Source: Gemmatimonadota bacterium
GTDB lineage: Bacteria > Gemmatimonadota > Gemmatimonadetes > Palauibacterales > Palauibacteraceae
Reading direction: 5' to 3'
Assembly (NCBI GenBank): GCA_022826685.1
Contig: JAJDUL010000020.1
Span: 1-64,000, forward strand
DNA: 64,000 nucleotides
Shown here: positions 49,820 through 51,636 of the stretch, one piece after another
Layout: each line of letters starts with the position of its first letter
How positions within the stretch are numbered: position 1 is the stretch's first letter
The notes under the pieces: model-generated
Told to the model about the DNA's origin: nothing
Databases searched by the model: none
Seen by the model: the letters and a program-made list of their open reading frames with translations, nothing else
Made by a program: the position numbers and the translations under genes

Positions 49820-50755
49820 TCATGGGTCTCCGGCAAGCGTCCAGGCGACGCCCGCGCGCACGTTCCAGTCTCCGCTCATTTCGGTGGTTCCGTGCCCGAG
49901 CGCGGCGTCGATGGACAACGGTCCCCGTCTCCACTCCACCATGGCCCGGAGTTCGCCGAGGTCGCCGGTGCCGGGCGGAGACACGCTCCTCGTGCTGGCA
50001 CGCCCCCGGGTCCCGACGGATAGCCGCCAGCTCGGAGCCGCGTCCCACAGAGCCTCGAACGCCCAGGCGAACGCATCGTTCTGCTCGAAGGGCTCGGCCG
50101 GCACCTCCAGGATGGAGACGCCGAACCAGCCGGTCGCGCGCCAGCGGGCGGAGGCCCACGAGAAGAGAGCCGCCATCGTGACGTCGGTCGTGTTCGTGCC
50201 GATTCCCATCGATTCGTCGGAGTTCGGCAGCTTGACTCCCAGGTGCCCGCCGGCCGAGAAGCCCCCCGGTCCCCTGAGGGGAACGATCGAGATGCCGATT
50301 TCGAAATCGCCCACATCGCGCGTCGTCCCGTCTCGAACGGAGGGGTCGAGCGCGATGGCGGGGGCCCGATCCCGCGCCTCGATCGAGAGCACCTTCCGGA
50401 CCGCCCCCTTCAGTTCGGCGACCGCGTGCGGCCCGATCGCCCAAGCGGCGTGGAGCACCGGGAAGGCGGTCAGATCTCCTCCGTGTCCGGCCAGCGGGAA
50501 GGCGGCGTTCGTCGTGCGGGTGAAGCCGACGCCGATCAGGGCTTCGCTGCGCTCCAACCCCACGGGCTGCACGAGAGCGTCGCGCTTCAGCTGCGCGGCC
50601 GCCGGACCGGGGAGGACGACGCCGAGCGCCGCGGCCAGAAGCGCGGCCGGAAACGCGGCCGGAAACGACGAGAGCCCGACGCGTGGACGCCGGGCTCTCG
50701 GGAACTGCGGCGAAGCGGACCGCCGGCGGGGGGCCGGCCGGCCGGTGCGACTCAG
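49820..50755 (-). CDS. Predicted outer-membrane beta-barrel protein (non-canonical start)
   Basis: Function unknown; repeated amphipathic beta-strands (AELKGAVRKVLSIEAR, DFEIGISIVPL, WRLSVGTRGRAS, WNVRAGVAWTL) suggest a barrel. The first usual start, GTG 50572, leaves no signal peptide. Upstream in frame is a clear signal peptide (LLAAALGVVLPGPAAAQ) with no ATG, GTG or TTG before it. CTG 50755, overlapping the previous stop as CTGA and preceded by AGGCGG, would give 311 aa. A hairpin at 50669-50700 lies inside this putative N-terminus. Both start and membership in the previous operon remain unsure. Confidence 0.6.
   Translation of the reverse strand: MSRTGRPAPRRRSASPQFPRARRPRVGLSSFPAAFPAALLAAALGVVLPGPAAAQLKRDALVQPVGLERSEALIGVGFTRTTNAAFPLAGHGGDLTAFPVLHAAWAIGPHAVAELKGAVRKVLSIEARDRAPAIALDPSVRDGTTRDVGDFEIGISIVPLRGPGGFSAGGHLGVKLPNSDESMGIGTNTTDVTMAALFSWASARWRATGWFGVSILEVPAEPFEQNDAFAWAFEALWDAAPSWRLSVGTRGRASTRSVSPPGTGDLGELRAMVEWRRGPLSIDAALGHGTTEMSGDWNVRAGVAWTLAGDP
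50669..50700 (-). terminator. Hairpin after the tandem-domain gene, possible terminator
   Basis: 10-bp perfect stem CGAGAGCCCG/CGGGCTCTCG with a 12-nt loop, 52 bp after the stop of the tandem-domain gene. On the minus strand it is followed by TCGTTTCC, a poor T-run. May instead mask the start of the outer-membrane protein. Confidence 0.4.
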
Positions 50756-51405
50756 TTTCGAGCCGCCTGCATGATGTCGTCCACGTAGCCGTCCAGCCGC
50801 GCCATGACCTCGATCGTCTCGGCCTGCGTCCCGGCGTTGGCCAGTTCTCTCGCGAGGCTGAGAAGCAGTCCGCGAACGGCGGCCGCGTCCCCGTCCCCCA
50901 CCGATGGCGCCTCGGCCACGACCGGCGCGGCAGGTGCCGGAGCCGGGGCGGGTGCCGGAGCCGGAGCGGGCTTCGGAGCCGGCGCAGCGGCGGCCAGGCG
51001 CCGCTTCACCTGGAGCGGGTACTTCGCATGGAACTGTCGGGCCGACAACTCGGCGACGGAGGCGTCGATCTCGCAGGCGCCCTTGAACAGCTCCGCGTTC
51101 TTGACGTCGGGATTCCTCTTGAGCACGCGCGTCACGTACGCCAGAACCGCCGCACCGTCATCGCCCTTCGGGGCACGCGGCCGCCGCGCCGCCTTCGCCT
51201 TCGCCGGCGCTCGAACCTTCCTGCGAGGGGCGGCCCCCGCCAAACGACGCTTGACCTGCAGCGGATACTTCGCGTGGAACTGCCTCGGGTTCAGCTTCCC
51301 GATGGCCTCGTCTATGAGTTTCGCCCCCTCAAAGAGCGTCGCATTCGAGACTTCGGAGTTCTTCTTCAACTCCGCCTCTATGAATTTCATGACGTTCTCG
51401 CTCAT
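50752..51405 (-). CDS. Basic protein with two copies of an unnamed RQFHAKYPLQVKRRL domain
   Basis: 217 aa, not recognised. Two helical domains (about 5-56 and 88-138) align at 26 of 41 positions by eye and share the exact C-terminal block RQFHAKYPLQVKRRL. Between them is a Lys/Arg/Ala/Pro-rich linker of histone-H1 or AT-hook character (APRRKVRAPAKAKAARRPR). A proline-alanine stretch (about 143-160) and a C-terminal helical segment follow. This looks like a DNA- or RNA-binding protein with a pair of small winged-helix-like modules; that is inference. ATG 51405 has a strong AGGAGGAGG site, implying good expression. No signal peptide. Confidence 0.75.
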   Translation of the reverse strand: MSENVMKFIEAELKKNSEVSNATLFEGAKLIDEAIGKLNPRQFHAKYPLQVKRRLAGAAPRRKVRAPAKAKAARRPRAPKGDDGAAVLAYVTRVLKRNPDVKNAELFKGACEIDASVAELSARQFHAKYPLQVKRRLAAAAPAPKPAPAPAPAPAPAPAAPVVAEAPSVGDGDAAAVRGLLLSLARELANAGTQAETIEVMARLDGYVDDIMQAARN

Positions 51406-51636
51406 TGTGCCTCCTCCTGCGGACTTTTGCGCCCGACGATAGATGCCGGTGGCGCGCGCTTATGGTGTGGTAGTGAACCATGATCTACCCCGACGCACCG
51501 CGAGTCAACTGTCGGTCAAGCAATAGATGTACGACCCTGTCCGAAAGGAGGCGGAGGAGCACCCGTGCGCGACCGAGCTACCGGTCGCGGGCGTCGCGCT
51601 TTCTGGGGTTGCCGCGCGGACGTAGCTTCCCGCCCC

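Follow-up and report, generated by a model that had tools for sequence, protein, structure and literature searches.

The window analyzed here, a stretch of 64,000 nucleotides, is part of a 3.28-Mb Gemmatimonadota MAG whose nearest named relatives are Candidatus Palauibacter. At 50752..51405 on the minus strand it carries an ATG-initiated open reading frame of 217 aa, which the initial annotation had described as a two-domain protein and which represents type A of the family described below. Domain copy 1 (aa 4-57; 51235..51396, minus strand) was delimited by alignments and profile matches and is modeled with a pLDDT of ~90 within the full-length protein, and copy 2 (aa 83-139; 50989..51159, minus strand) matches the family profile at 5.1e-30 and is all-helical in an AlphaFold2 model with a pLDDT of 85.7. 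The copies are joined by a Lys/Arg/Ala/Pro inter-domain linker (aa 58-81; 51163..51234, minus strand) of 24 aa with a charge of +10 and a pI of 12, which is predicted to be disordered (pLDDT <50 at aa 62-79). A Pro/Ala-rich linker follows (aa 140-172; 50890..50988, minus strand; predicted disorder at aa 156-171) and leads into an acidic C-terminal tail (aa 173-217; 50755..50889, minus strand) that is conserved family-wide and has three predicted helices, placed by the full-length model at aa 174-190, 194-202, and 204-216. Linker, PA stretch, and helical tail were thus all found as first described. The RQFHAKYPLQVKRRL blocks of the two copies begin at residues 41 and 123, a spacing of 82 residues. 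A gapless alignment of the copies spans 51 aa with 29 identical residues (57%, E=3e-21), and a longer comparison gives 33 identities in 59 residues; the 26 of 41 identities originally reported were of the right size, the best 41-residue stretch having 28.

Upstream of the gene lies a Shine-Dalgarno sequence, AGGAGGAGG (51410..51418, minus strand), within which GAGGAGG is kept in nine orthologues. The perfect AGGAGG is locally rare, being found before 2 of the 67 mechanically called genes on the contig, in agreement with the very strong ribosome binding site noted at the outset. Further upstream, a promoter-like site, TTGACT - 17 bp - GATCAT (51480..51508, minus strand), is a putative promoter kept among orthologues, with a TTGAC and a GAT(C/T/A)A(T) box in 9/9 aligned upstream regions and slight variation in the second box. 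Codon usage of the gene gives no sign of high expression, and codon adaptation is uninformative in this genome because its ribosomal genes do not differ from background. Among nine Palauibacter-type orthologues, the dN/dS ratios of 0.22 for copy 1, 0.20 for copy 2, and 0.25 for the tail indicate purifying selection on the folded parts, and the linkers evolve fast (0.70 for the inter-domain and 0.43 for the Pro/Ala-rich linker). The dN/dS values of ~0.2 in both domains and tail, together with the recurrence of the domain in 65 of 395 Gemmatimonadota genomes, argue that neither the reading frame nor the domain is a product of chance.

The gene stands alone on the chromosome beside metabolic genes. 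Its neighbors encode a multicopper oxidase, an SDR, a cupin, a PIG-L deacetylase, and a sodium:solute symporter, and were set aside as a functional clue, having no evident link to the protein. Directly downstream is a 250-aa open reading frame (49820-50572, minus strand) with no Pfam match. At the same chromosomal locus in a relative (L056), the family member has a single domain and a linker of charge +8, flanked by a PIG-L-like reading frame upstream and cupin- and SDR-like ones downstream, as recognized by eye. Another single-domain orthologue (L037:5593-6399) resembles domain 1 in its first half and domain 2 in its second, the layout expected of a deletion via recombination between the two copies.

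The domain had not been recognized from the sequence, and the searches bear this out. Scans of Pfam-A, NCBIfam, and PHROGs with the window protein, 16 single domains, 19 full-length proteins, and 27 diverse single-domain members gave scattered weak matches and none above the curated cut-offs, and PDB sequences yielded no significant match to the domain even with the family profile. Matches to MmdC, PopZ, PspA, and DEC-1 involved just the low-complexity PA/charged stretch, and a match of the C-terminal tail to the C terminus of a tetrapyrrole methylase (E 0.1) was judged to be chance. The single-domain model (pLDDT 85.7, pTM 0.67) is all-helical, with helices at residues 4-16, 22-32, 34-37, 41-47, and 49-59, and in the full-length model both domains take this form and, like the three-helix tail, have a pLDDT of ~90, the linkers being disordered. 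A small all-helical domain with its basic block in the last two helices agrees with an HTH or winged-helix layout and is non-diagnostic. The fold comparison proposed with that layout in mind was unproductive, as Foldseek searches against PDB and viral models returned nothing at E<=0.001 (best E 3.0 for the domain and 3.3 for the full-length protein), and the weak matches were to HMG boxes, Lrp-type HTH proteins, homeodomains, and unrelated helical proteins alike. No paper containing the motif, and none on such a protein in Gemmatimonas, was found in the literature.

A profile search with the single domain located the family in 65/395 Gemmatimonadota genomes and 31/138 genera. The distribution is patchy, two small genomes of the window's own genus lacking the family. 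When 84,980 species genomes were scanned with the pattern FHA[KR]YPLQ alone, 48 loci were confirmed, almost all in genomes named Gemmatimonadota; since divergent forms of the motif, such as RQFNARFPLQ and LRSFHGTYV, exist inside Gemmatimonadota, absence from other phyla holds for the canonical motif. Several MAGs named Gammaproteobacteria or Bryobacterales by NCBI also carry the family (L049, L050, L060, L070, L072, L074, and L075). One of these loci, L075 (VXNP01000100), coincides by contig coordinates with a genome placed in the window's class (G128), and the NCBI names are therefore probably wrong or the contigs misbinned. Viral contigs and phage records contained no relatives, on which ground a phage origin of the gene was rejected. 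A plasmid search found the 1.1-Mb plasmid of Gemmatirosa kalamazoonensis KBS708 as sole carrier; its member (L117, L149; NZ_CP007129.1 ~1064097) is divergent and single-domain, with the motif FHATYRLPALR. As judged from these searches, this is a genuine and previously undescribed domain family, so far found, in its canonical motif form, in Gemmatimonadota only.

Family proteins have one to three copies of the ~55-aa domain and a linker, and almost all end in a shared helical tail of 45 aa; a few divergent members (L123-L125, L138) have a different C terminus. The majority are single-domain proteins whose linker is strongly basic and H1-like, sometimes with an AT-hook. The domain tree, which has few columns and many open forks, places separate duplications in the Palauibacter lineage and in a BD2-11-like lineage (both copies together, 100/97), with a third, less firmly supported, in the L059 lineage. 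It thus supports at least three origins of multi-domain members, the last of them less firm.

The charge of the domain is strictly polarized. The C-terminal third is basic in 108/108 domains, with a mean of +5.2 over ~18 residues, and the N-terminal two thirds are acidic on average (mean -2.5 in the same 108 domains). Most invariant positions fall within the basic C-terminal block; the conserved block of the domain reads RQFHARYPLQVKRR, with a K/R-bearing RQFHAKYPLQVKRR block. No characterized domain was matched and the domain is polarized rather than negative, so neither of the outcomes that were to speak against the initial reading was seen. Linker charge separates the architectures: single-domain members average +8.1 and reach +33, whereas multi-domain members average -3.7 and are mostly neutral or acidic (Mann-Whitney p=3e-10, an optimistic value because the members are related). 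Some multi-domain proteins are net acidic, down to -33. Among the 41 single-domain linkers, 4 contain the AT-hook core RGRP, where 0.5 would be expected (p=0.0012). The linker charges and the independent duplications fit a scheme in which domains and basic linker would be interchangeable sources of polyanion affinity. The results establish a new domain family with strict charge polarity, gain of tandem copies, and linker exchange.

A second form, type B, is a two-domain paralogue whose domain 1 ends in YRLPATRR rather than YPLQVKRR and whose linker is acidic (L039:5692-8242 and L046:5749-8142; also L040-L045, L049, L052, and L055). At 11 of the 12 type-B loci with enough downstream DNA, the next gene, in the same orientation, is a Phage_integrase gene (PF00589). 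Among the 52 other members such a gene lies downstream of one, an interrupted type B, and of none of the ~51 otherwise. At L048:235-2339, a type-B gene is broken by a ~1.3 kb insertion within domain 1. The pair is common to Palauibacter and another Gemmatimonadota family, and between distant loci homology covers the gene, the upstream 100-200 bp, and the recombinase and stops just outside; type B and recombinase therefore behave like a single unit of transfer. The recombinase family itself occurs in 71/395 Gemmatimonadota genomes, often in >=4 copies each, and most copies have other upstream DNA. Of the 30 top-scoring loci of the recombinase (L155-L184), just 4 carried type B, which makes it a passenger or accessory of some recombinase copies. 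Type B is absent from the window genome, and so is any such recombinase at E<=1e-60. Tyrosine recombinases are a setting in which DNA-architecture proteins frequently occur.

Taken together, the basic block in 108/108 domains, the H1-like linkers, the AT-hook cores, the stand-alone gene, and the promoter-like site point to nucleic-acid binding and possibly to a nucleoid role. This much of the function originally proposed is supported; that the ligand is DNA rather than RNA is presumed. We favor an accessory nucleoid-type protein of Gemmatimonadota, architectural or globally regulating, that binds DNA, to which we give a probability of roughly 0.52; it probably coats or bridges DNA. The coupling of the type-B paralogue to a tyrosine recombinase supports this reading, and against it stand the lack of significant likeness to known DNA-binding domains in the searches above, the net-acidic members, and the patchy distribution. 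The conserved basic block would bind a polyanion, most likely DNA, the basic face RQFHA[KR]YPLQ[VI]KRR of the last two helices meeting the phosphate backbone and the acidic first helices of each domain, on the presumed assignment of faces, pointing away from it. Extra affinity would come from the basic linker in the ancestral single-domain members or from the second domain in the window protein, where the tandem domains would give avidity. Two DNA contacts, as suggested initially, are plausible for this protein, but most relatives have one domain. The acidic three-helix tail may join molecules into dimers or larger assemblies, by which separate DNA segments would be bridged. Such a function would be additional to that of HU. 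PF00216 (HU/IHF) has no match in the window protein and two elsewhere in its genome, HU is present in 60/60 relatives, YbaB is encoded in the window genome, and the H-NS family (PF00816 C-terminal DNA-binding motif) was found neither in the protein nor anywhere in that genome.

The main rival has structured RNA, be it in the ribosome, an mRNA, or a small RNA, and not DNA as the ligand of the basic block and the tail. The charge pattern would be the same, basic disordered segments would suit RNA or polyphosphate no less than DNA, and copy 2 as a single sequence weakly matches bS21 (E 0.09 in PDB; phrog_21469, E 0.085). These matches vanish under the family profile, some members have AT-hook cores, and type B is linked to an integrase; DNA is preferred on these grounds. 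No linkage to translation genes was seen, and RNA binding seems to us rather unlikely. We consider it quite improbable that the protein is a sequence-specific transcription factor in which tandem HTH-like domains read two half-sites and the tail dimerizes. The domain is indeed all-helical and HTH-sized, LrpC, CENP-B, and homeodomains are among the weak fold matches, and HTH_Tnp_Tc5 (Pfam) was matched by 2 of 19 members (best E 4e-4), but this last match is absent from 27 others, the fold matches are all non-significant, there is no ligand domain, and the linker drifts freely in composition and length. Least probable is a polyphosphate-granule protein like the H1-like AlgP, which helps the even spacing of such granules in Pseudomonas aeruginosa (PMC9239181) and would here place them on the nucleoid, for the single-domain linkers are similarly Lys/Ala/Pro rich but conservation in the window protein lies in the folded domains and tail, and the basic linker is mostly lost in multi-domain members.

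Nucleoid organization in Gemmatimonadota seems almost unstudied, a full-text search for nucleoid-associated protein having returned no related paper. The family is a compact, recurrent candidate, and its natural one-, two-, and three-domain variants bear on the weight of avidity versus linker charge in DNA binding. The mobile type B bears on the idea that mobile elements bring along variants of their host's DNA-binding proteins, as plasmids do with H-NS-like ones. A broader proposal, which we regard as speculative and somewhat unlikely as a whole, is that the new domain founds a Gemmatimonadota class of nucleoid proteins in which a histone-like basic tail was repeatedly swapped for extra domain copies, and that the partly degenerate, acidic type B of a mobile recombinase element would help its recombination or interfere with the host's protein.

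Several known systems resemble parts of this protein. CENP-B and HTH_Tnp_Tc5 are alike in size and helical make-up, and 1hlv is among the weak Foldseek matches at a non-significant E of 5.3. HMG-box proteins (SOX, HMG-D, and the tandem boxes of Abf2) recur among these matches and likewise use small helical DNA-binding boxes, in tandem in places, but E-values of 3-10 and rmsd values of 9-18 Å amount to no real superposition. AlgP and the chlamydial Hc1/Hc2 are small proteins with long Lys/Arg/Ala/Pro disorder, and many single-domain relatives are alike in this H1-like character (the linker of L078 reaches +33); in contrast, conservation here falls on a folded helical domain of ~55 aa and on the helical tail, and the window protein has just the 24-aa, +10 linker, a PA-rich second linker, and a doubled domain. 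H-NS and Lsr2 are similar in working principle alone, with a small DNA-binding domain, a flexible linker, and a separate helical part, presumably oligomerizing, and with mobile elements that bring their own paralogue; there is no sequence relation, and in the present family the domain order is reversed and the domains may stand in tandem.
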